From: Clostridiales bacterium VE202-21
GTDB lineage: Bacteria; Bacillota; Clostridia; Lachnospirales; Lachnospiraceae
NCBI GenBank assembly: GCA_000509105.1
Contig: BAIF02000051.1
Location: forward strand, 1 to 64,000
DNA length: 64,000 nt
Reading direction: 5' to 3'
Shown here: positions 1 to 64,000 of the stretch, one piece after another
Layout of the letters: the number at the start of each line of letters is the position of its first letter
Position numbering within the stretch: position 1 is the stretch's first letter
Notes under the pieces: model-generated
What the model was told of the DNA's origin: nothing
Databases searched by the model: none
What the model saw: the letters and a program-made list of their open reading frames with translations, nothing else
Made by a program: the position numbers and the translations under genes

Positions 1-111
1 CACCGGATGAGAAGGCTAAACTCTGCTTCCGAAGCAGAGTTTAAGCCGGCCTGAGCCGCGCAATTCATCAGAATTGCGGGGTGAATGCCGGTGGTGCCTT
101 CTCATCCGGTG
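1..111 (-). repeat. long inverted-repeat element, copy 1 (left part possibly outside window)
   Basis: Bases 1-15 are exactly complementary to 97-111. Inside are two hairpins (18-43 and 59-78) and a five-base stem (CCGGC/GCCGG) that encloses the second. Read on the minus strand the order is five-base stem, hairpin with a TGAT loop, then second hairpin, the same order as in the elements at 57258, 63184 and 63790. The outer arm may continue left of the window. The element is followed at 112-120 by a short T-rich run, so it could also end transcription of an upstream gene. No coding role is seen. Confidence 0.7.
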
Positions 112-3444: not shown

Positions 3445-4237
3445 TCAGGAGAAGATTACAGATCAGGATATTAAAAGGGTCAGCAAAAGATGGATTCTGG
3501 CATCCCAGATTACATGGAATTACGAGAAAATGATGGGTGTCGGCTATCTCTATGCGATTCTGCCTATATTGAGAAAATTATACAAAAAGTCCGAGGACTT
3601 GAAAGAAATGATGAAAAACCACGTGCAGTTTTTTAACACAACACCGCACATGGGAGGTTTTATTCTTGGAATTGACGCCGCAACGGAAGAGTCCGGCGGG
3701 AAAACCGCGAAGGATGCGGCCAGTGGTATCAAGACAGGTCTGATGGGGCCGTTTGCAGGCGTGGGCGACACTATTTTCGGAGTACTGATCCCAACCATTT
3801 TCGGTTCTATCGCGGCTTATATGGGACAAAATGGCAATGTGACAGGTGTTGTGATCTGGCTTCTTGTCAATATTGCAATACTGATTTTCAGATATTTTAC
3901 AACAGGAATTGGTTACCGTGAGGGAACAAAGCTGGTTACCTCTGCAAAGGATAAACTGGATGCCCTGACACATGCGGCGACCCTGCTTGGAATTACGGTT
4001 GTGGGTGCGCTGATCCCTACAGTTGTAAAGGCTAACATAGCGGCAAACTTTAAATCCGGTGATGTAACGCTGGAAGGCCAGGCAATCGTAGATCAGATCA
4101 TGCCAAGCCTCGTGCCGGTACTTGTCGTAGCCGGGATCTACTTCCTGCTGGGCAAGAAAAAAATGACTTCAACAAAAGCAATTTTAATTATTATGGTGGC
4201 ATCTATTGTATTCTATGCGATTGGATTATTAGCATAA
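3425..4237 (+). CDS. PTS mannose/sorbose-family EIID component
   Basis: 270 residues. Cytoplasmic N-terminal half with the IID signature (RWILASQITWNYEKMMGVGY, then FFNTTPHMGGFILGIDAA and GLMGPFAGVGDTIFG), then hydrophobic segments towards the C-terminus. Works with EIIC as the membrane part of the transporter. The start codon lies inside the end of the IIC gene, with an AGGAGG site in that overlap. All four PTS domains are therefore present and intact, so the transporter should be functional. Confidence 0.93.
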   Translation: MENLKINQEKITDQDIKRVSKRWILASQITWNYEKMMGVGYLYAILPILRKLYKKSEDLKEMMKNHVQFFNTTPHMGGFILGIDAATEESGGKTAKDAASGIKTGLMGPFAGVGDTIFGVLIPTIFGSIAAYMGQNGNVTGVVIWLLVNIAILIFRYFTTGIGYREGTKLVTSAKDKLDALTHAATLLGITVVGALIPTVVKANIAANFKSGDVTLEGQAIVDQIMPSLVPVLVVAGIYFLLGKKKMTSTKAILIIMVASIVFYAIGLLA

Positions 4238-8078: not shown

Positions 8079-8591
8079 ATGTTTATATCAGAAGAACAGT
8101 TTTTGCAGGCAATTTCCAATATGATGGATAAAAAACTGGATGCAAGACTGTGTGAGATGCCGACGAAAGCGGAATTGGACGCAAGGCTGTCGGAGATGCC
8201 GACAAAAGCAGAATTGGACGCAAGGCTGTCGGAGATGCCGACAAAAGCAGAACTGGACGCAAGGCTGTCGGAGATGCCGACAAAAGCAGAACTGGACGCA
8301 AGGCTGTCGGAAGTACCGACAAAAGCAGAACTGGATGCAAGACTGTCGAAGATGCCGTCGAAAAAAGAAATGGCGGATAGTCTGTATAGACTTGAAAATA
8401 ATCTTCTGGAGGAACTTGATATCGTGCAGGAGAAAGCTAACAGACGTTTTGAAAGGCTTGAGAACCGGATGGTTTCTCTTGAGTCAGCGGTAAATGCAAT
8501 CAGGATTGAAAGCAGCACGATTAATCTGCTGGCGGAAAAGTATTCAGATTTAGAGACAAGAGTAAAAGGATTGGAACAGAAAATATCATAA
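8079..8591 (+). CDS. coiled-coil protein with six 13-residue tandem repeats
   Basis: 170 residues; no enzyme domain recognised. Residues about 21-98 are six copies of a DARLSEMPTKAEL unit, then a long charged helix rich in Leu heptads (residues about 98-170). No signal peptide or membrane segment. The ATG at 8079 is preferred (GGTGAGGTGG upstream) to an earlier in-frame ATG at 8040. The whole protein is predicted alpha-helical and likely oligomeric. Function is unknown; it might be a cytoplasmic scaffold or binding protein. It stands alone between the tRNA and homoserine dehydrogenase. Confidence 0.75.
   Translation: MFISEEQFLQAISNMMDKKLDARLCEMPTKAELDARLSEMPTKAELDARLSEMPTKAELDARLSEMPTKAELDARLSEVPTKAELDARLSKMPSKKEMADSLYRLENNLLEELDIVQEKANRRFERLENRMVSLESAVNAIRIESSTINLLAEKYSDLETRVKGLEQKIS
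8139..8372 (+). repeat. 39-bp in-frame tandem repeat, six copies
   Basis: Exactly 6 x 39 bp with no length change. The three central copies are nearly identical at DNA level and the outer copies are more diverged (Cys for Ser in copy 1, Val for Met in copy 5, Lys/Ser/Met changes in copy 6). This pattern is expected for repeats that expand and contract by recombination from the middle. Confidence 0.95.
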
Positions 8592-10587: not shown

Positions 10588-10627
10588 AAATAGATAATAA
10601 TTTTCAGAATATTCAGAATATGGTGGG

Positions 10628-10648
10628 CAAAGGGGTCAGACCCCTTTG
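10628..10648. repeat. 21-bp perfect palindromic repeat, copy A
   Basis: CAAAGGGGTC and GACCCCTTTG flank one central base. The same 21-mer, in the opposite orientation, lies inside the GH38 gene at 28672-28692. Here it sits just before the thyA ribosome site and could fold as a hairpin in the leader. Confidence 0.85.
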
Positions 10649-19728: not shown

Positions 19729-19787
19729 AGATGCCGCGATGTGACCGCCGCAGGCGCGAGTTTCGCAAGCGAAACTCTATTTTATAG
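19729..19787 (+). repeat. dispersed GC-rich repeat RPT-A, copy 1
   Basis: About 57 bp, including GTGACCGCCGCAGGCGCGAG and a GAGTTTCGC...GCGAAACTC hairpin. An almost identical copy in reverse orientation is at 40229-40285 and a diverged one at 34885-34935. It overlaps the last codons of the LacI gene. Confidence 0.8.
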
Positions 19788-27881: not shown

Positions 27882-30587
27882 ATGAAAAAATTAAAGGCAC
27901 ACATGATTTGCCATACCCATTGGGACAGGGAGTGGTATCTGACACGGGAACAATTCAGGACAAAACTGGTCAGGCTCATAGACGGGCTTCTGGATTTGGT
28001 TGAAGAGGTTCCGGAATATGTCTCGTTTATGCTAGATGGACAGACAATAGCGATTGAAGATTATCTGGAGATAAAACCGTATTGCAGAGAACGTCTCTTC
28101 AACGCGCTGAAGACGGGAAAAATTATCTGTGGACCGTGGTATGTTCTGCCGGATGAACTTTTAATCAGCGGGGAGTCTCATATAAGGAATTATTTGAAAG
28201 GTGCACAGGTAACGGCGGAAGCTGGGCATAAAATGGAGACGGCCTACCTGCCGGACTCCTTCGGGCACCCGGCACAGATGCCCCAGATAGCGGTGGGGCT
28301 GGGGATGCATACGATGGTATTCTGGCGGGGCGCTTCCAGAGAAATGGATAAGACAGAATTTTACTGGGAATCTCCTTTTCCGGACTCGCGTGTCCTTTGT
28401 ATCCATATGCCACATGGCTATGGCAACAGCGGGAATCTGAGCAGTGACATGGATATTACCGTGCCAAGGGTGAAAGAATTGATTGAAAGCCTGGGGGCAA
28501 AATCAACAACAGATGTGGTCCTTCTGATGAACGGCTCGGATCATATCATAGGGCAGAAGGATATCTGTGAGGTGGTCAGACAGCTGAATGAGCAGATACC
28601 GGAGTGTTATATTGAACTGTCCACTATGGAAAATTACCTGAATGAACTTCGGGAACAGTTAGAGAAACGTACAAAGGGGTCTGACCCCTTTGCACTATCA
28701 GCCTTCCGTGGTGAGATTCGTTCGGGCGAGTGTTCTATGCTGCTTGGAGGCACTCTGTCAAGCAGAATGTATTTGAAGCAGAGAAATGATATTGTACAGA
28801 ATAAAGCGGAGCGCTATCTGGAACCCCTGCTTGCGCTTGAAAAGCTGAGCGGACGGGAATTCGACAGCTGCGGGTATTTGGACTATATCTGGAAGAAGAT
28901 TCTGGAAAACCATCCCCATGACAGCATCTGCGGATGCAGTATTGACGAGGTGCACCGGGAAATGATGACACGCTACGCCTGTGTGGAACAGCTGGAAGAT
29001 ACGCTGATGCACGACACTGTAGTGAGAAATGAAACGAAGGGGCAGCGGGCAGACAAGAGAGCGGCAGAAATCGCTCTGTTTGAACCGTGCGTTAAAGAAC
29101 AGCCGGCCTATGCGGAACTGGAGATCTGTATGGATGAGACGCTTGTACAGTCTGTTGACTATACGAAGTCTGTAATTGTAGATTGTGAGAATAGCATCTG
29201 CCATCCGGATATCCCGGCGGGAATCAGAATTACGGATGAGGCGGGAAGGAAGATACCACATGTTATTCTGGAGGCAAAGAAGGATTACAATACGTTGTAC
29301 CAGGATCATACCATGCCGGAGATTTATAAGGTAAATAAGTTCCGCGTGGGTGTGATGCTTCCCGGCTTTACATATGGCTGCCACCAGCTGACAGCAGCGC
29401 CGTCTGATGAGCCATCTGATTGGGCAGTCAGGACAGAGGGCAGTGCCATAGAGAATGAGTTCTACCGTCTGAGTGCAGGGGAAAAAGGGCTTATCCTGCT
29501 GGATAAAAGGACACAGGCGGAACATGAAGGATTTGCCAGAATGATTGATAAGGGGGATGCTGGTGATGAATATACATATTCATGGCCGGAAGAGGATCGT
29601 GAATGTACAATAGACGGTTCTGCACTGGAGGTTGAGAAAGAAATTCAGGAGGGTATCTGCCAGGCTCTGATACTCCGCGGAAATATGATACTTCCGGAAG
29701 CACTCAGTGAAGACCGCAGGTCAAGGAAAAAGGCGATGACCAAATGTTCTTTTGCTATGAAAATCACCTTATACAGCGGGATAAATCGGATTGACTGTCA
29801 TCTGGACTTTGAAAACAATGCTAGAGATCACAGGCTCCAGGTACAGTTTCCATCAGGAATACGGACGAAAACCAGTGAGTCTTACCAGATATTTGATATA
29901 ACAGAGCGTCCAGTTGAAGTTGAAGTTCCTGAAAAATGGATGGAATATCCACAGTCCACACATCCTAATCACGGTTACGTTGGTATTCATGACAATTGTG
30001 AGGCGATGAGTGTGGGAACAACAGGGCTTCCGGAATATGAAGCAGTACAGACAGAAGCGGGAACAGCCGTAAATTTGACACTTCTCCGGTGTGTGGGGTG
30101 GCTTTCCAGAACGGATTTGCTGACACGGCATGGAAACGGCGGCTGGACAATTGAGACGGAGGAAGCGCAGTGTATCGGAAACCACAGCTTTGATTTTTGT
30201 GTGGTATATCATCCGAACCGCACGGCCGAAGCTTTTGATGTGATTGAGAGATTCCGCTGCCCGGTCTACACGCAGTCTTTAAAAAACGGGTGCAGGAGTC
30301 TCCTGGCTGAAGAACATGCGGGAAATTTTATGAATAAGCTGCCGGAAGGCGTCCAGCTTTCAGCTTTGAAGATTTCGGAAAGGCAGGATGGCGTTATCCT
30401 GAGGATCTACAGCATTCTGGACGACAGGCAGGAAGTGGTTTTGCCGGTGCAGCCCGGAATGGATAAGGTATACATGGCGAACCTTGCGGAGGAAAAGCAG
30501 AAGAAACTGGAAGTGCGAAACGGAGAAATAAGATTTGAAATCAAAACCGGACAGATTATAACGTTATATATCGAGACCAAACCTTAG
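27882..30587 (+). CDS. alpha-mannosidase, GH38, cytoplasmic
   Basis: 901 residues, no signal peptide. Cleaves alpha-linked mannose from imported oligosaccharides. N-terminal catalytic domain: ICHTHWDREWYLTREQF (Zn-binding His and Asp), YLPDSFGHPAQMPQI with the expected nucleophile Asp, VLLMNGSDH and NHPHDSICGCSIDEVHREM (metal ligands). The three-helix and beta-sandwich domains follow (about 340-900). Around residues 264-270 a TKGSDPF segment is encoded by a 21-bp palindromic repeat also found at 10628; it lies between helices and probably does not break the fold. Supplies mannose that the LyxE-like isomerase at 34960 could convert to fructose. Confidence 0.93.
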   Translation: MKKLKAHMICHTHWDREWYLTREQFRTKLVRLIDGLLDLVEEVPEYVSFMLDGQTIAIEDYLEIKPYCRERLFNALKTGKIICGPWYVLPDELLISGESHIRNYLKGAQVTAEAGHKMETAYLPDSFGHPAQMPQIAVGLGMHTMVFWRGASREMDKTEFYWESPFPDSRVLCIHMPHGYGNSGNLSSDMDITVPRVKELIESLGAKSTTDVVLLMNGSDHIIGQKDICEVVRQLNEQIPECYIELSTMENYLNELREQLEKRTKGSDPFALSAFRGEIRSGECSMLLGGTLSSRMYLKQRNDIVQNKAERYLEPLLALEKLSGREFDSCGYLDYIWKKILENHPHDSICGCSIDEVHREMMTRYACVEQLEDTLMHDTVVRNETKGQRADKRAAEIALFEPCVKEQPAYAELEICMDETLVQSVDYTKSVIVDCENSICHPDIPAGIRITDEAGRKIPHVILEAKKDYNTLYQDHTMPEIYKVNKFRVGVMLPGFTYGCHQLTAAPSDEPSDWAVRTEGSAIENEFYRLSAGEKGLILLDKRTQAEHEGFARMIDKGDAGDEYTYSWPEEDRECTIDGSALEVEKEIQEGICQALILRGNMILPEALSEDRRSRKKAMTKCSFAMKITLYSGINRIDCHLDFENNARDHRLQVQFPSGIRTKTSESYQIFDITERPVEVEVPEKWMEYPQSTHPNHGYVGIHDNCEAMSVGTTGLPEYEAVQTEAGTAVNLTLLRCVGWLSRTDLLTRHGNGGWTIETEEAQCIGNHSFDFCVVYHPNRTAEAFDVIERFRCPVYTQSLKNGCRSLLAEEHAGNFMNKLPEGVQLSALKISERQDGVILRIYSILDDRQEVVLPVQPGMDKVYMANLAEEKQKKLEVRNGEIRFEIKTGQIITLYIETKP
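28672..28692. repeat. 21-bp palindromic repeat, copy B, inside the GH38 gene
   Basis: Exact reverse complement of the 21-mer at 10628-10648 (arms CAAAGGGGTC/GACCCCTTTG). It is read in frame as Lys-Gly-Ser-Asp-Pro-Phe, so the insertion has been tolerated in a catalytic gene. Confidence 0.9.
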
Positions 30588-34821: not shown

Positions 34822-34884
34822 ATTCCATATATAAATTGAATACATTTCTTAGGGGATGCGCACTGCGGCGTAAGAGGCGGCTGC

Positions 34885-34935
34885 TGCAATGCGGCCGCCG
34901 AAGGCACGGGTTTCGCGGGAGAAACTCTATTTGAT
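34885..34935 (+). repeat. diverged copy of repeat RPT-A
   Basis: GGCCGCCGAAGGCACGGG followed by TTTCGCGGGAGAAACTCTATTTGAT aligns with the repeat at 19729 over about 45 bp with scattered changes. Lies between the second URO-D gene and the isomerase gene. Confidence 0.6.
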
Positions 34936-40228: not shown

Positions 40229-40285
40229 TATAAAACAGAGTTTCGTTTGGAAACTCGCGCCTGCGGCGGTCACATCGCGACATCT
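40229..40285 (-). repeat. repeat RPT-A, copy 2
   Basis: Reverse-complement copy of 19729-19787, differing at about five positions. It lies in the mgtE leader between the riboswitch terminator and the gene. Confidence 0.85.
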
Positions 40286-40660: not shown

Positions 40661-40740
40661 GCGAAATGAAGGGATTGCTGAAAGCCGCCCAACGGCATAT
40701 GTGCATTTGGGCGGCTTTCGGCAATCCCTTTATTTCGTGC
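40661..40740. repeat. palindromic repeat of the GCGAAATGAAGGGAT family, copy A
   Basis: GCGAAATGAAGGGATTGC with an AAGCCGCCCAA inner stem pairs with the opposite arm ending ATCCCTTTATTTCGTGC. The same outer arms occur at 57871-57920. It lies 15 bp beyond the gdhA stop and may serve as that gene's terminator. The flank TTAGACTTG..ACGGATG is also shared with the other copy. Confidence 0.8.
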
Positions 40741-57211: not shown

Positions 57212-57257
57212 AGATCAGTTCGTAAGCTTTAGTCTTGCGATGGATGGGGACGCGGAC

Positions 57258-57550
57258 GCTGAAAAACCGGGAAGCCTGCCCCATGCCGGGAGCATCTATG
57301 CCATTTTAAAAATCCGCTCCGTTTACGCAAGAGGCCCTAAAGGAAAAAACACAGAAAATGGCGGTCCAGCGGCATGCAGCCCGAAATTTGATAATTTCGG
57401 GCCTTAGGCCGCTTCAGAATTTGACATGAGACGTCAAATTCTGCCCACCATTTTCTGTGTTTTTTCCTTAAGGGCCTCTAACGTAAACTCTAGGACTTTT
57501 AAAATGGCATAGATGCTCCCGGCATGGGGCAGGCTTCCCGGTTTTTCAGC
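57258..57550 (+). repeat. long inverted-repeat element, copy 2 (complete)
   Basis: Outer arms of 54 bp are perfect (57258-57311 and 57497-57550). A small interior loop follows, with TTTACG/CGTAAA pairing, then inner arms of 31 bp with one mismatch (57331-57361 and 57448-57478). The core holds stem GCGGC/GCCGC (57369-57373, 57408-57412) enclosing hairpin CCCGAAATT-TGAT-AATTTCGGG, then hairpin CAGAATTTGAC/GTCAAATTCTG (57415-57443). No open frame and no transposase. It follows the MoeA-like gene by 46 bp. Confidence 0.9.
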
Positions 57551-57583
57551 TGGTACATCCGGTCGCTGGGAAAAACTTGCCCA

Positions 57584-57835
57584 CAGGGAGGGGCTCTAAA
57601 ACGGGGGCAGCGTATTAATTCTTTTGGTGGAACGTGTAAGTCCCAGTACGTTATTGGTGATTATAGTACCGTTTTAATCGCTGCTGCTGGAGAGAGTGTG
57701 TGTATATACCATTACAGTGCAAGATTATCATGTAAATTCTACTATCTATAGAAGATGCTATCCTCTTTATTTACTGGAGCTATTTTATACCACCAAACGA
57801 ATCAATACGCTGCCCCCGTTACGGAGCCTCCCCCC
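57584..57835. repeat. second inverted-repeat type with CAGCGTATT arms, copy 1
   Basis: Arms 57603-57630 and 57790-57817 (28 bp, two mismatches) share the core GGGGGCAGCGTATT/AATACGCTGCCCCC, and outer GGAGGGGCTC/GAGCCTCC extend it. The loop of about 160 bp has no open frame of note. A shorter relative lies at 63534-63718, again just after a long inverted-repeat element. Confidence 0.75.
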
Positions 57836-57870
57836 AGTAGACTCGCTTTACTCCCGATTGGATGAACCTA

Positions 57871-57920
57871 GCGAAATGAAGGGATCGCCGCAGGCCTGTG
57901 GCGATCCCTTTATTTCGCGC
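57871..57920. repeat. palindromic repeat of the GCGAAATGAAGGGAT family, copy B
   Basis: GCGAAATGAAGGGATCGCC pairs with GGCGATCCCTTTATTTCGCGC. It matches the outer arms of the repeat at 40661-40740, and a non-palindromic flank (ACGGATG...TTAGACTTG in reverse) is also shared, so the repeated unit is longer than the hairpin. Confidence 0.8.
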
Positions 57921-57968
57921 CCCCCCATCCGTCGCCAAGTCTAAAGCTTGTCAACTAAAAGATTTGTA

Positions 57969-57997: not shown

Positions 57998-58024
57998 TAT
58001 ATATATAGAATAATAAAATTAAAG

Positions 58025-58093
58025 AATACTTATATAGGTTCATAATCGGATGGACGTTTCTACCAACTACCGGAATAGTTGACTATAAGTATC
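58025..58093 (+). promoter_or_regulatory. purine-class riboswitch aptamer
   Basis: P1 ATACTTATA/TATAAGTAT, conserved J2/3 GTTTCTACC, P3 AACTA/TAGTT with loop CCGGAA, and J3/1 GACTAT. The C in GACTAT corresponds to C74, which reads guanine-type ligands rather than adenine. J1/2 (TATAGG instead of TATAAT) and the short P2 are unusual. A 13-bp downstream hairpin (58087-58118) uses part of the P1 3' strand, so the two are mutually exclusive. No U-run follows it, so the output mechanism is unclear. Confidence 0.82.
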
Positions 58094-58152
58094 TGCGGAG
58101 GTATCTCTGTAGTTACTTGTGCGGCAGGGATGCGGGAAGGAGGCGTCAGCAG

Positions 58153-59433
58153 ATGAATGAACCTATTTTTATATTAAAAGGAAATATTGTATACAGCAGG
58201 AGTGCAGAGGAACTGGAGATATGCGAACACGGCTATCTGGTCTGTGAAAACGGACGGGTGAAGGGGGTGTACCAGACTCTGCCCTTTGTGTATGGAGGAA
58301 TCCCTATTACCGATTATGAGGACCGGCTGATTATACCGGGGCTGGTGGATCTGCATGTGCATGCACCGCAGTATTCGTACCGGGGACTGGGGATGGACAT
58401 GGAGCTTCTGGAGTGGCTGGAGACAAATACATTTCCGGAGGAGGCGAAGTTTCAGGAGACGGAGTACGCGAAGAAGGCATACCGAATTTTCGTGGATCGT
58501 ATGCGCAGAAGCGCTACCACCAGAGCATGTATCTTTGCCACCGTGCACAGAGAGGCAACCCTTCTTTTGATGGATATGCTGGAGGAAGCTGGGTTAAATA
58601 CGATGGTCGGCAAGGTGAATATGGACAGGAATTGTCCGGATTACCTGCGGGAAGAGTCGGCGGAGGCCTCTGCTTCGGAGACTGTGGAATGGATCAAGGA
58701 TGTGCTGCATAAGAAATATAAGCATACAAGGCCAATCCTGACTCCCCGTTTTACGCCGAGCTGTACGGATGACCTGATGGAGCGGCTGAAAATGATCCAG
58801 ATGCGCTATGAACTTCCCCTGCAGTCACATTTATCGGAGAATCCGGGGGAGATTTCCTGGGTGAAGGAGCTCTGCCCATGGTCGGAGTTCTATGGGGATG
58901 CTTATGATAAGTTTGGCCTCTTTGGTTCGGACTGCCCGACGATCATGGCACACTGCGTATATTCGGATGAGAAAGAAATAGCCAGGATGAAGGAGAACGG
59001 TGTATATATCGCGCACTGTCCGGAATCCAATATGAACATTGCCTCCGGTGTGGCTCCCGTGAGAAGGTTCCTGGCTGAGGGACTTCATGTGGGGATGGGA
59101 AGCGATGTGGCCGGAGGCTCTACGGAGAGCATTTTTACGGCTATGGCCCACGCCATCCAGGCATCCAAGCTCCGCTGGCGGCTGCTGGACGGTTCCTTAA
59201 AGCCGCTGACTGTGGAGGAGGCATTTTATATGGCCACAAAAGGCGGAGGAGAGTTCTTCGGCAGGGTTGGAAGCTTCGAAGAAGGCTATGAGATGGACGC
59301 GGTTGTGCTGGATGATATAAGGCTTGAACATCCCCAGCCGCTGGACGTGAAAAAACGTCTGGAGCGGATGATTTATTTCTCGGATGACAGAGAGATCTAT
59401 GCAAAATATGTAGAAGGCAGCAGGCTGTTTTAA
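58153..59433 (+). CDS. guaD: guanine deaminase
   Basis: 426 residues. Deaminates guanine to xanthine. Amidohydrolase motifs: IPGLVDLHVHAPQYSYRGLG (HxH and the guanine-binding Gln), LPLQSHLSENPGEI, TIMAHCVYSDEKEI, AHCPESNMNIASG and GMGSDVAGGS with the metal-binding Asp. Start 58153 follows AAGGAGG by 9 bp; the longer frame from 58117 overlaps the leader. First gene of the purine operon. Confidence 0.93.
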   Translation: MNEPIFILKGNIVYSRSAEELEICEHGYLVCENGRVKGVYQTLPFVYGGIPITDYEDRLIIPGLVDLHVHAPQYSYRGLGMDMELLEWLETNTFPEEAKFQETEYAKKAYRIFVDRMRRSATTRACIFATVHREATLLLMDMLEEAGLNTMVGKVNMDRNCPDYLREESAEASASETVEWIKDVLHKKYKHTRPILTPRFTPSCTDDLMERLKMIQMRYELPLQSHLSENPGEISWVKELCPWSEFYGDAYDKFGLFGSDCPTIMAHCVYSDEKEIARMKENGVYIAHCPESNMNIASGVAPVRRFLAEGLHVGMGSDVAGGSTESIFTAMAHAIQASKLRWRLLDGSLKPLTVEEAFYMATKGGGEFFGRVGSFEEGYEMDAVVLDDIRLEHPQPLDVKKRLERMIYFSDDREIYAKYVEGSRLF

Positions 59434-59481: not shown

Positions 59482-61779
59482 ATGGAGGATAGGGAACACA
59501 TTGTAGGGAAAAGTGTTAAGCGGGTGGATGCCTTTGAGAAGGTGACGGGACGCGCCAAGTACACGGATGACCTGTGCGATAAGGGCGCTTATGTGGCTAA
59601 GATTCTGCATTCAGCAGTTGCCCACGGTATTGTGAAATCCGTTGACACAAAAGAGGCGGAGCAGATTCCGGGTGTCGTGAAGATTGTGACATGTTTTGAC
59701 GTTCCAAAGAATTATTTTCCAACGGCAGGGCATCCGTGGTCCACAGACCCTGCACACCAGGACGTACAGGATCGTCTGATCCTGACGGACCATGTGCGGT
59801 TTTACGGGGATGATGTGGCGGCTGTGGTGGCTGAGAACGAAGTGGCCGCGGCGAAGGCCGTGCGTGCGATCAAGGTAGAATACGAGGAACTGCCGTTTGT
59901 GCTGGATGTCCAGAAGGCGATGGAGGCGGATGCCCCGCTGATCCACGAGGAATATCCGGGGAATATTCTGAAGCACACGGCGATCAAAAACGGCAATTAT
60001 GAGGAAGCGAAGAAAGAGCCGGGTCTGATCCGGGTGGAGGGCTGGTACAATACACCTACGGTACAGCACTGCCACATTGAGAATTTTATCTGCTATGCCT
60101 ATATGGAACAGGGGAGGATTGTGATCGTCTCCTCCACACAGATCCCGCATATCTGCCGCAGAGTCGTAGGGCAGGCGCTGGGGATCCCCTGGGGGCAGGT
60201 GAGAGTGATCAAGCCATACATAGGCGGCGGGTTCGGCAATAAGCAGGATATCTTATATGAACCGCTCTGTGCGTATCTGAGTACGGTCGTTGGAGGTCGT
60301 CTTGTAAAGTTGGACGTATCCAGGGAGGAGACGTTTGTATCCAACCGGGTACGGCACGCCATACGCACCCATATCATTTCCTATGTGAGGCCCGACGGCA
60401 GTTTTGCGGCCCGGAAGATCGAGTGTTTCTCAGACCAGGGGGCCTATGCTTCCCACGGGCACAGCATTGCGGCGAAGGGGCTGGGGGCATTTCCGCAGCT
60501 TTATCCCTGTCCGAATGTGGAGGGGGACGCTTACACAGTATTTACGAATAAGCCGGTGTCCGGGGCTATGAGAGGTTACGGCATCCCGCAGGCAATGTTT
60601 GCGGTGGAGAGCCATACGGATGATGTGGCAAAGGCGCTGGGAATCCCCCCCTATGAATTTCGGTGGAAATATCTGATGCCAAAAGGATTTACGGATGGAT
60701 TTTCTAAAAATAAGAACTATTATGATACCTTCCATCAGTGTATGGAAAAGGGAAAAGCATACATAGACTATGACAGGAAGCTTCAAGAATACAACGGACA
60801 GACAGGAGAGATCAGAAAAGGCATCGGTGTGGCGGCATTCTGGTATAATACGGGCGTGTGGCCCATCTCCCTGGAGACCTCTTCATGCCGGATGGTGCTC
60901 AACCAGGACGGTTCCATACAGGTACAGGTCGGGGAGACGGAGATTGGCCAGGGGGCAGATACGGCATTCGGTCAGATGGCGGCGGAGACGCTGGGAATTC
61001 CGTTCGAACAAGTCCATGTCATGACCGTGCAGGATACGGATATCACTCCGTTCGGAACCGGTGCATATGCATCCAGGCAGACCTATATGGCCGGATTCTC
61101 AATCAACCAGACGGCAGCACTTTTGAAGAGCCATATTCTGGATACGGCCCAGGAACTGACCCGGCATACAAAAGAAAGCCTTGACCTTATAGACGGCAAT
61201 ATTGTCCGGAAGGGAGACGGGGAGATTCTCATGAGCCTGGCGGAGCTGGCCACAGAAAAGCTGTACAGCCTGACGAACAACGGGCATCTGACCGCGGAGA
61301 GTACCTATCAGGCGAAGACAAATGCGTATTCCTTCGGATGTACATTTGCGGAGGTTGAAGTAGATATCCCGGCATGCAGGGCGGTACTGACAAATATCGT
61401 CAACGTGCATGACTGCGGGAAGCTGATCAATCCGGCCCTGGCCGAGGCCCAGGTGCACGGGGGCATGAGCATGGGGATCGGTTACGGGTTATCGGAAAGG
61501 CTGATTTTTGACGAAAAAACAGGAAAACCGCTGAATAATAACCTCCTGGACTACAAGTTATCTACCTTTATGGATCATCCGCACCTGGAAGGCCATTTTG
61601 TAGAAAATTACGAGCCCACCAGTGCATATGGTACGAAAGCGCTTGGAGAGCCGCCGGTCTGTTCCGTTGCTCCGGCAATCCGAAATGCCGTGCTGCAGGC
61701 GACGGGTGTGGCTATAGATGAGATTCCGCTGACACCGCATATACTTTTCAGGCGGTTTAAAGAAGAAGGACTGATATAG
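59482..61779 (+). CDS. xdhA: xanthine dehydrogenase-type molybdenum-binding subunit
   Basis: 765 residues. Hydroxylates purines at the molybdenum centre. EHIVGKSVKRVDAFEKVTGR at the start is the a/b hammerhead domain; cofactor-binding regions include IGGGFGNKQDILYEP, GAMRGYGIPQAMFAVESH and VGETEIGQGADTAFGQMAAE; the catalytic Glu is expected in KALGEPPVCSVAPAI. Follows guanine deaminase by 48 bp, so its likely substrate is xanthine, giving urate, though related enzymes oxidise other purines. Confidence 0.93.
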   Translation: MEDREHIVGKSVKRVDAFEKVTGRAKYTDDLCDKGAYVAKILHSAVAHGIVKSVDTKEAEQIPGVVKIVTCFDVPKNYFPTAGHPWSTDPAHQDVQDRLILTDHVRFYGDDVAAVVAENEVAAAKAVRAIKVEYEELPFVLDVQKAMEADAPLIHEEYPGNILKHTAIKNGNYEEAKKEPGLIRVEGWYNTPTVQHCHIENFICYAYMEQGRIVIVSSTQIPHICRRVVGQALGIPWGQVRVIKPYIGGGFGNKQDILYEPLCAYLSTVVGGRLVKLDVSREETFVSNRVRHAIRTHIISYVRPDGSFAARKIECFSDQGAYASHGHSIAAKGLGAFPQLYPCPNVEGDAYTVFTNKPVSGAMRGYGIPQAMFAVESHTDDVAKALGIPPYEFRWKYLMPKGFTDGFSKNKNYYDTFHQCMEKGKAYIDYDRKLQEYNGQTGEIRKGIGVAAFWYNTGVWPISLETSSCRMVLNQDGSIQVQVGETEIGQGADTAFGQMAAETLGIPFEQVHVMTVQDTDITPFGTGAYASRQTYMAGFSINQTAALLKSHILDTAQELTRHTKESLDLIDGNIVRKGDGEILMSLAELATEKLYSLTNNGHLTAESTYQAKTNAYSFGCTFAEVEVDIPACRAVLTNIVNVHDCGKLINPALAEAQVHGGMSMGIGYGLSERLIFDEKTGKPLNNNLLDYKLSTFMDHPHLEGHFVENYEPTSAYGTKALGEPPVCSVAPAIRNAVLQATGVAIDEIPLTPHILFRRFKEEGLI

Positions 61780-61824
61780 ACCGGAGCATAGTCCACTGTT
61801 GTTAGTGAAGGGAGGATACGAGAT

Positions 61825-62712
61825 ATGTATGATATGAAAGCGCTGTACGAGGCAGAGAGCGTGACCCATGCCATTGCACTGCTTCAGGAGCATCCGCAGG
61901 CCCAGATCATTGCCGGTGGAAGCGACGTTCTGGTACAGATGAGAGAGGGCAAGCGCGCAGGAGCAGAGCTGGTAAGTCTGTTTGGCCTGGATGAACTGCG
62001 CGGGGTAAAACTGGAGGAGAACGGGACCATCCGCATCGGTTCCCTGACCAGCTTTTCCCATATAACAAAAGATCCGGTTATACAAAAATATATCAATGTA
62101 CTGGGGGAGGCCGTAGACAAGGTAGGAGGCCCTCAGATTCGCAATATCGGTACCATAGGAGGCAATACCTGCAACGGAGTTACCTCAGCAGACTCTGCGT
62201 CCACACTTTTTGCATGGGATGCAATCGTCGAACTGACCGGCCCGGAAGGGATCCGGAAGCTGCCGATCCGGGAATTCTACATCAAAGCAGGAAAAGTCGA
62301 TTTAAGGCCGGCAGAGATACAGACAGGTATCCTCATCCCCCGTAAGTCGTACGTGGGATACTGCGGGCATTACATTAAGTACGCCATGCGGGGAGCCATG
62401 GACATAGCAACCCTCGGCTGTTCGGTTAACGTAAAGCTTTCCGAAGACAAAAAGCAAATAGAAGATGTAAGGATCGCCTACGGTGTAGCCGGCCCGATTC
62501 CCATGCGTGCCGTCCACGCAGAACAGGCGGGCAAAGGCCGGCAGATCGAAGATTCTACTATAGAATTAATCGGTGACACTGTATTGGAAGACGTAACCCC
62601 AAGAGACAGCTGGAGAGCCAGCAAGGCCTTCCGGGAACACATCTCAAAGGTCCTGTGCAAACGGGCCCTGAAAGAGTCAATCCGTCTGGCAGGAGGTGTT
62701 TATCATGAGTGA
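61825..62712 (+). CDS. xdhB: xanthine dehydrogenase-type FAD-binding subunit
   Basis: 295 residues. Passes electrons from the iron-sulfur subunit to NAD+ through FAD. FAD-binding motifs IIAGGSDVLVQMREG and IGTIGGNTCNGVTSADSAS are clear. Ends with the usual CO-dehydrogenase flavoprotein C-terminal domain. Overlaps the next start by 8 bp, so the two subunits are translationally coupled. Confidence 0.93.
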   Translation: MYDMKALYEAESVTHAIALLQEHPQAQIIAGGSDVLVQMREGKRAGAELVSLFGLDELRGVKLEENGTIRIGSLTSFSHITKDPVIQKYINVLGEAVDKVGGPQIRNIGTIGGNTCNGVTSADSASTLFAWDAIVELTGPEGIRKLPIREFYIKAGKVDLRPAEIQTGILIPRKSYVGYCGHYIKYAMRGAMDIATLGCSVNVKLSEDKKQIEDVRIAYGVAGPIPMRAVHAEQAGKGRQIEDSTIELIGDTVLEDVTPRDSWRASKAFREHISKVLCKRALKESIRLAGGVYHE

Positions 62713-63193
62713 AAAGCAATATAAGCTCGTAACATGCACAATCAACGGAGAAAAGCGCGAAACCATGGTAGATGTAAGGGCATCTCTGACAGACATGCTC
62801 CGTAACGACTACCGTCTGACCAGCGTAAAAAAAGGCTGTGAAGTAGGAGAATGCGGAGCCTGCAACGTCATCATAGACGGAGAATGCTACAACTCCTGCA
62901 TCTACCTGGCTGTATGGGCCGATGGAAAAGAAATCCGAACACTGGAAGGCCTCATGGGCCCCGGAGGAGAACTCTCCGATATCCAGCAGGCCTTCATAGA
63001 CGAAGCAGCAGTACAATGCGGCTTCTGCACCCCCGGAATCATCATGAGCGCAGTAGAGATCCTCGAGTCCGGAAAACAATACACAAGAGAAGAACTAAGG
63101 AAATTACTGTCCGGCCATTTATGCAGATGCACCGGCTACGAAAACATCCTCAACGCGGTAGAGAAAACAATGCAGGGGAGGTCGCCTGTCTGA
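62705..63193 (+). CDS. xdhC: xanthine dehydrogenase-type [2Fe-2S] subunit
   Basis: 162 residues. N-terminal ferredoxin-like cluster: CEVGECGACNVIIDGECYNSC; C-terminal cluster: QCGFCTPGIIMSA and GHLCRCTGYENIL. All eight Cys are present. AGGAGG precedes the ATG. The last codons run into the long inverted-repeat element that starts at 63184, which may end the operon. Confidence 0.95.
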   Translation: MSEKQYKLVTCTINGEKRETMVDVRASLTDMLRNDYRLTSVKKGCEVGECGACNVIIDGECYNSCIYLAVWADGKEIRTLEGLMGPGGELSDIQQAFIDEAAVQCGFCTPGIIMSAVEILESGKQYTREELRKLLSGHLCRCTGYENILNAVEKTMQGRSPV

Positions 63194-63482
63194 AACGGGG
63201 AGCGTGCTGCCGCCGGGATAAAAGGGTATGGAGGCTGGGAGTAACCCACTTATGGAGAAGTACTAACATAAAAGACGCCGCCCACGAGGGCACATCCAAC
63301 ATGCAGCCAGAAAGCCTGATGCTTTCTGGCTTTAGTTGGAATGGGAAATGATTTTGGAAAATCATTTCCCATCCCTCGTGGGCGGCATCTTTTACGTAAG
63401 TACTTCTAAACCATGTGTTCTAAACTCCCAGCCCCCATACCCTTTTATCCCGGCGGCAGCACGCTCCCCGTTTCAGACAGGC
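63184..63482 (+). repeat. long inverted-repeat element, copy 3
   Basis: Outer arms of 59 bp with one mismatch (63184-63242 and 63424-63482), inner arms GAAGTACTAACATAAAAGAC.../...TCTTTTACGTAAGTACTTC and CCGCCCACGAGGG/CCCTCGTGGGCGG. Core: stem CCAAC/GTTGG enclosing hairpin CCAGAAAGC-CTGAT-GCTTTCTGG, then hairpin GGGAAATGATTTT/AAAATCATTTCCC. Same order and similar size as copy 2, but with almost no sequence shared in the stems. Confidence 0.9.
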
Positions 63483-63533
63483 TGGGTGCCTCCAATCGGG
63501 AGTCCGGCAGCCAGAAGGAGCCGCCAAACGGAA

Positions 63534-63718
63534 CCAGCGTATTAAACCGCCTAACCGATACATAAAAACTCCCCAGCAATTCATCCAACCGCGAGAGCGG
63601 GCACTGTAAGCTGCCCGAACACGAGCCTGCCAAACAGTCCCCCTTTGCATATCCTCCATATTTCCAACCTAAACCTACTGGATCGAACACGAGCCGTTTT
63701 ACCATTTCTATACGCTGG
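63534..63718. repeat. second inverted-repeat type with CAGCGTATT arms, short copy 2
   Basis: CCAGCGTAT (63534-63542) pairs with ATACGCTGG (63710-63718), with a loop of about 165 bp, close to the loop size of the copy at 57584. Only the core arm is conserved. No supported gene lies in 63483-63790. Confidence 0.45.
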
Positions 63719-63789
63719 CCCCGTCACACCGCCATTCTTAAGCGGCTTCCCAATTGCTGTCCGGTGCGGACGAAGCTAAGTAAAAGGCG

Positions 63790-64000
63790 AGGCAGACTCC
63801 GGGGGAGCTGTCCATGCCATTTCAAAGTCCATAGAGAGCGCGGTTAGAATCCGTTAGAGAAAAAACAGGGAACTTGGAGGGCAGAATTTGTTTTACCAAA
63901 CAAATTCTGTTGCCGCCGGCGGCGCGAATGCATCGGCATTCGGGCCAACTGCGGCAAGCACCCTCCAAGTTCCCTGGTTTTCTCTTACGGATTCTCCGCA
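63790..64000 (-). repeat. long inverted-repeat element, copy 4, cut by the window end
   Basis: Inner arms GAATCCGTTAGAG...GGGAACTTGGAGGG (63848-63881) and CCCTCCAAGTTCCC...CTCTTACGGATTC (63961-63995) pair. The core read on the minus strand gives stem GCCGC/GCGGC enclosing hairpin CGAATGC-CGAT-GCATTCG, then hairpin CAGAATTTGTTTGG/...CAAATTCTG. The upstream CATGCCATTTCAAAGTCC looks like the outer arm of copy 2 and would pair with sequence beyond 64000. Confidence 0.75.

Follow-up and report, generated by a model that had tools for sequence, protein, structure and literature searches.

Four long inverted repeats lie in a window of 64,000 nucleotides (the whole stretch of Clostridiales bacterium VE202-21 DNA analysed here), and they raise the question of whether a fold that is kept while its letters change belongs to a structured RNA or to a hairpin-based mobile element that uses a helper enzyme. 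These were the two options posed by an initial annotation, which described four hairpin elements, copies 1 and 4 on the minus strand and copies 2 and 3 on the plus strand. All four were present, on the same strands in matches to a covariance model (R1). The copy that had been placed at 63790-64000 exists, but its true extent is 63775-64064 and it is cut by the window end; the copy at 1-111 is likewise real, but it begins at base 1 of contig C93 and its outer arms were probably lost there, cut by the assembly at the contig edge. The five-base stems had been described correctly but listed out of coordinate order, and ATGCAG is indeed common to copies 2 and 3. Beyond these four elements, we found over 100 additional copies, a foot (GGAC) in front of the hairpin and a tail of ~75-100 nt behind it, units paired tail to tail, and a second, short-hairpin unit at 57780-57949 (Table 1). 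At a probability of about one half, we read these units as a family of giant DNA hairpins dispersed over the genome, which behave like REP/REPIN elements but are some seven to fifteen times larger.

Table 1. Repeat units and their parts in the 64,000-nt window.
Feature	Position	Strand	Basis or remark
Copy 1, tip and inner stem	1-111	-	R1 match C93:1-110:- at E 2.7e-22; contig C93 starts at base 1
Short palindrome, 76 nt	40662-40737	-	unit-like flanks; arm sequence like 57871-57918; without three-way tip
Left-end sequence AAGCTTTAGTCTTGCGATGGATGGGG + ACGC	57224-57253	+	inverted copy at 57923-57949; similar sequence at other places in the genome
GGAC foot	57254-57257	+	start of similarity to 6/7 other close copies
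Giant hairpin H, 293 nt	57258-57550	+	palindrome detection; folding as DNA
Three-way tip: hp1 (loop TGAT) in a stem with internal loop ATGCAG/CTTAG, followed by hp2	57351-57464	+	R1 match E 3.8e-26; alignment A2
Conserved tail of the unit	57551-57648	+	DNA similarity searches
Tail of second, inverted unit	57780-57870	-	DNA similarity searches
Short hairpin of second unit	57871-57918	-	self-match 57871-57918
Left end of second unit	57923-57949	-	inverted copy of 57224-57249
Foot GGTC of third unit	63180-63183	+	flank columns
Giant hairpin H of third unit, 299 nt	63184-63482	+	palindrome detection and R1 match
Tail of third unit, diverged	63483-63560	+	by eye; tail DNA search matches only 63481-63503
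Tail of fourth unit	63700-63774	-	by eye
Giant hairpin H of fourth unit	63775-64000, on to 64064 outside the window	-	R1 match 63861-63975:-

The hairpins were compared with chance in three ways. Folded as single-stranded DNA, 57258-57550 had z = -27.6, with 0/200 shuffles as good (z = -25.5 for the other strand). A 299 kb contig held six palindromes, against none after base shuffling, and across 39 copies 393 cells carried double changes versus 109 in shuffles, a count that 0/500 shuffles reached.

Each unit is a GGAC foot, a palindrome of ~290 nt with a fixed interior plan, and a tail of ~75-100 nt. Hairpin size in the host genome had a median of 293 nt (quartiles 282-305, n=75, the contig-edge copy C93:1-110 omitted from this set as from the stop-codon count below), and was wider in 32 units from other genera (241-433 nt as measured); the loci added to the size and stop-codon sets were no random sample, having been picked for their score or as pairs. 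Three units of genome G015 (L173, L182 and L191) had longer hairpins, for which 421, 409 and 390 nt were measured under a flank limit of 250 nt. In the host's flank columns, GGGGAC stands before the hairpin (49-77% at each position) and TGG after it (64-77% each), followed in many copies by GTGCATCC, the register of which is not constant. Similarity among the dispersed close copies begins at the GGAC foot in six of seven and ten bases earlier in one, and it ends in the tail, at 57624-57648. Read inward, the hairpin consists of an outer stem of ~53 bp, an asymmetric internal loop, a stem of ~25 bp with two mismatches, and a three-way tip, in which hp1 (loop mostly TGAT) sits within a short stem bearing a conserved internal loop and is accompanied by hp2. 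There are at least three tip sequence types (ATGCAG/CTTAG, ACATCAC/GCGCTGG and ATTCAC/GCTCAG). The outer arms are 58 nt long at 57258-57550 and 59 nt at 63184-63482, each 98% complementary; of 40 host outer stems one was free of mismatches, so the arms are near-perfect, not perfect.

Mismatches in the host units were A.A 142, A.C 141, C.T 140, G.T 124, A.G 76 and T.T 40. The A.A mismatches occupy CTAAG/CTAA contexts and were paired 8-11 bp apart in 49 of 85 units (absent in 36/85), 10 bp being the commonest distance (47 pairs). Among 14 hand-picked units from other genera there was no A.A excess (A.A 18 vs T.T 16); so far, the A.A excess is a feature of the host, where C.T is as common as A.A. 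Units are often arranged tail to tail, as in 13 pairs that were cut out, and selected, as pairs (nine from the host and four from genome G172), and some have a short hairpin or none. Pairing of the left end with the tail was rejected, the left end being present in some copies only. Flip-flop of the tip was rejected as a rule, since tip and unit orientation agree in the copies compared by eye; an exception, also seen by eye, is the second hairpin at pnp, in which the tip is inverted relative to the arms in one genome.

The repeats are numerous in the host genome. With 57215-57965 as query, DNA similarity yielded 89 matches there, including seven further copies of the hairpin at 82-92% identity, and the 96-base tail gave 45. 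Eight contigs (1,235,390 bases) contained 48 palindromes scoring at least 22, 30 of which span 225-354 nt. The initial annotation had suggested a covariance model and a search of the host and its relatives; R1, built from 39 tips, returned 139 host matches at E<=0.1 (125 at E<=1e-10), 150 of the 1069 candidates having been scored and both strands counted for two places or more; 35 of the 139 fall in the eight contigs (1.235 of 5.307 Mb) used for the counts. Matches were also found in 11 of 150 genomes of the host's bacterial family, in four of 392 genomes drawn from its order (three of them new, all in the host's family) and, among 391 genomes drawn from the class, in the host only. This makes 14 carrier genomes in 13 genera and one bacterial family, with no carrier outside that family among the order and class genomes drawn; these large searches ran with stricter filters, so that weak carriers may be missed. 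A DNA search with the tail in 61 genomes matched the host only. The exact tail pattern had four matches in GTDB contigs, from which the host's own records were possibly left out, with surroundings unlike a unit, and none in viral contigs. We found no report of repetitive extragenic palindromic hairpins in Lachnospiraceae in the open-access library searched. On the basis of a draft assembly of one host species, these repeats would make up a large, apparently undescribed family located 3' of ordinary genes.

The single plan, covarying stems and dispersal that had been read from four copies recur as real covariation in many more; the opposite outcome, no further covarying copies, is not what was found. 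RNAalifold on alignment A2, which leaves out C111_11373, gave 36 tip pairs, 34 of them with both sides changed in some copy. Pairing occurred in 91.2% of cells versus 62.1% with the 3' letters shuffled, and the covariation score was 0.736 versus 0.198 (0/500 shuffles reach it); slid partners scored 0.111-0.226, in a control that is biased in favour of the structure because the structure was derived from the same alignment. In the outer stem of eight close copies, 36 double changes stood against six single ones. Between two genera at tgt, we counted 20 double changes, seven G.T/A.C and three others (19, 7 and 9 if the reference is the other genome), and at pnp, where the alignment is poor, 28, 8 and 32 (24, 11 and 25 with the reference reversed). 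The close copies thus look corrected arm to arm, and the cross-genus counts are compatible with this, the doubles having no clear win. Mutations that extend identity between the arms of quasipalindromes are among those described in yeast (PMC3820800). As arm-to-arm correction can itself produce compensatory change, covariation is by itself no proof of selection on every pair. The initial annotation had taken compensatory change to mean that the fold is selected; what looks selected is the size, the loops and the places of the mismatches.

An excess of double over single changes is what arm conversion alone would yield, and it would fit a reading of the repeats as inert palindromic debris (MITE remnants), kept symmetrical by replication errors only and with neither function nor present mobility. 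The shortened and hairpin-less copies and the inverted tip at pnp would suit such remnants too. Conversion alone, however, should erase loops and mismatches, yet these recur, in the host at fixed places, which suggests selection on them; the size is held as well, and two genera have kept units at the same places. We regard decay without function as distinctly improbable.

The position of the units relative to genes was one-sided. A sense reading frame of at least 100 codons ended within 60 nt before the hairpin in 49/72 host and 16/24 other-genus units, whereas on the far side an antisense stop was found in 4/72 and 2/24, and at random places in 178/2400. A second count, in the eight contigs, gave a stop within 80 nt in 21/35, on the far side in 1/35 and at random intergenic places in 996/6400. 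In the window, the hairpin of the third unit overlaps the stop of the upstream 2Fe-2S gene (gene end 63193). The genes ahead of units look ordinary; from their translations, some are presumably asd or leuD. Behind pnp and tgt, two genera have units at matching places with their neighbours kept (gene names by NCBIfam), and at a purB locus flanking genes and units are also shared. Such a sense position behind stop codons, together with the persistence at pnp and tgt and the fixed, covarying plan, would also fit a structured RNA at message 3' ends, whether a terminator, a stability element or a processing element selected as RNA.

This alternative was weighed against the kind of pairing present, in that an RNA helix tolerates G.U and not A.C. 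Nine tRNA genes from the same contigs, a small control, gave 189 Watson-Crick pairs, 21 G.T and 0 A.C. By contrast, the outer stems of 40 host copies had 1965 Watson-Crick pairs, 16 G.T, 35 A.C and 42 others, the host tips 1245, 34, 41 and 83, and the whole arms of 72 host units 6017, 124, 141 and 473, respectively. For 24 units of other genera the counts were 2378, 71, 63 and 239; units with an arm score below 40 had been removed from both whole-arm sets (75 to 72 in the host, 32 to 24 in other genera), and C93_57600, a tail pair and not H, was dropped from the strand, wobble and tip sets. Host pairing is not RNA-like: with G.T no commoner than A.C, and with doubles far exceeding singles between close copies, the host data favour a DNA hairpin with mutually corrected arms. 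The antisense strand folded better by RNA energies in 34/40 copies, which counts against full symmetry of the strands.

Other comparisons with RNA pointed both ways. Many hp2 loops contain TTCG or TTTG, recalling RNA tetraloops, and in the 14 hand-picked other-genus units G.T outnumbered A.C by 32 to 16, both in keeping with selection as RNA; set beside the 71 and 63 of the 24 units, this leaves the wobble count of other genera less clear than that of the host. At gathering score, the only Rfam families in the window were T-box, M-box, tRNA and purine riboswitch, none of them at hairpin H, and below threshold the hairpins matched only long miRNA models and one archaeal sRNA. Terminator scans yielded three sites versus 1.1 expected and one versus 1.0; two of the first scan's three sites and the last scan's single one lie inside hairpins, the remaining site in the riboswitch region. 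We consider it possible, though rather unlikely, that the family is an RNA of message 3' ends. Of the two options posed at the outset, the host data thus favour the hairpin-based mobile element, although its helper was sought and not established.

The closest known elements are REPs, and the family is filed as REP-like in behaviour, not as REP. According to PMC3733652, REPs lie next to the 3' ends of genes, often as inverted dimers, measure 20-40 bp and have GTAG or CGTC feet; its main text makes no mention of Firmicutes, Clostridi- or Lachnospir-. The likeness to REPs, REPINs and BIMEs as portrayed there extends to high copy number, extragenic position 3' of genes and inverted pairs, and further to an unpaired foot at one end and variable stem and loop sequences. 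The units differ from REPs in size (~290 nt, with a three-way tip and an internal loop) and in having a GGAC foot and a TGG tail, not GTAG/CGTC; the complement GTCC resembles CGTC only partly. Organelle repetitive hairpin elements are likewise scattered over intergenic regions and divergent in structure and sequence, but those set out in PMC2800124 belong to mitochondrial genomes. In integrons, attC sites keep their structure while their sequence varies, and they sit behind a gene's stop codon. Unlike integron cassettes, the units at tgt and pnp have gene order kept on both sides. To our knowledge, no large constant architecture of this sort exists among organelle hairpin elements.

A helper gene was sought among the neighbours of the units: the 139 loci, a few of which were retrieved more than once, yielded 520 ORFs but no gene common to them, and the largest clusters, of 11 and 9 ORFs, cover eight and nine loci. 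That a hairpin nuclease had been lost was rejected as a cause, SbcD being present in 27/28 genomes including the host. Were the units REP elements proper, they would be moved by a RAYT (REP-associated tyrosine transposase), and several of these genomes encode one. Y1 transposases of 235-310 aa occurred in 7/11 carriers versus 1/11 others, and REP_Tyr_transpos matches of at least 65 bits, a threshold of our own, in 8/14 carriers versus 5/24 others, where four of the 24 (G024, G025, G028 and G032) count as non-carriers in the sense that they were not among the matches listed in the 150-genome search. The host has a 262-aa Y1 protein with 73.4 bits to REP_Tyr_transpos (cut-off 80), and the placement and inverted pairing of the units resemble those given for REPs in PMC3733652. 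On the other hand, six of the 14 carriers have no 65-bit match, and in G172, which carries at least 25 units, the sole match is a 31-bit fragment containing a stop. Unlike REPs, the units were not seen to flank a RAYT gene: R1 had 0 matches at the 13 loci taken from around Y1 genes, of which 12 are long Y1. A 281-nt palindrome flanked by GTCTC, ~2.5 kb away from the Y1 gene in G015 (L228), is in favour of the RAYT reading, yet it too has no R1 match. Several Y1 genes adjoin small hairpins of their own, as judged by eye. The hairpin, moreover, measures 293 nt and not 20-40. The link between RAYTs and the units is weak, and that these are REPs proper is quite improbable.

RAYT-like genes of this bacterial family have small hairpins next to them. 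These too form in DNA, many with a foot or stem end of the GGGGAC type (by eye), but they are far shorter (73 and 75 nt at L237), have no three-way tip and gave no R1 match at those loci. At L237, in genome G004 and without an R1 match, hairpins at 2511-2585 and 3671-3743 flank a RAYT-like gene, and their foot CTAGGGGACT recalls the GGGGAC foot of the giant units. Short Y1 genes of the IS200 type lie within 5 kb of units, by coordinates, in two genomes (2.3 kb in G036, contig C85, and 4.3 kb in G026, contig C89).

The giant DNA-hairpin reading would account for the host data as follows. The working form would be folded single-stranded DNA or a cruciform, and the arms would be near-perfect because one is re-copied from the other, by template switching at the quasipalindrome or by repair within the hairpin. 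The loops, and in the host the two A.A mismatches about one B-DNA turn apart, would be kept by selection, presumably because a protein binds them, and spread to new sites would have needed a helper in trans. The G.T and A.C counts of the other genera and the restriction of the A.A excess to the host stand against this reading, as do the 36/85 units without the A.A pair, the near-perfect but not perfect stems, the doubles' want of a clear lead between genera, and the sense position and hp2 loops already noted. A helper was looked for and not found, and no empty site or target site duplication could be read. Carried further, it would make the family a new class of mobile element, a self-correcting giant DNA hairpin recognised by its shape (the three-way tip, the internal loop and, in the host, the two A.A mismatches one helical turn apart) and moved behind stop codons by an enzyme acting in trans; this extension is speculative and, on balance, unlikely.

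A functional RNA is usually proved by covariation. In this family the covariation is extreme, but the host's G.T versus A.C count points to DNA. If the DNA reading holds, that count would offer a ready test separating RNA folds from DNA palindromes in genome scans. With over 100 copies in a single genome, the spread and near-perfection of bacterial palindromic repeats also become testable.

Several other features of the window were recorded. A purine riboswitch (58010-58105) stands ahead of an amidohydrolase gene (58117-59433), after which xanthine-dehydrogenase-type genes follow at 59482-63193 (Pfam). A tandem repeat with 39-nt spacing occupies 8095-8406; its 117-nt copies, six in all, overlap, and those other than the reference resemble it at 66-93%. 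A dispersed repeat of ~54 nt (GATGTGACCGCCGCAGGCGCGAGTTTCGC...) occurs at 19729-19785, 34882-34935 and 40250-40285. Small inverted repeats around AAAGGGGTCAGACCCCTTT lie at both 10627-10648 and 28672-28693, and they resemble the hairpins beside the Y1 (RAYT-like) gene in L235.
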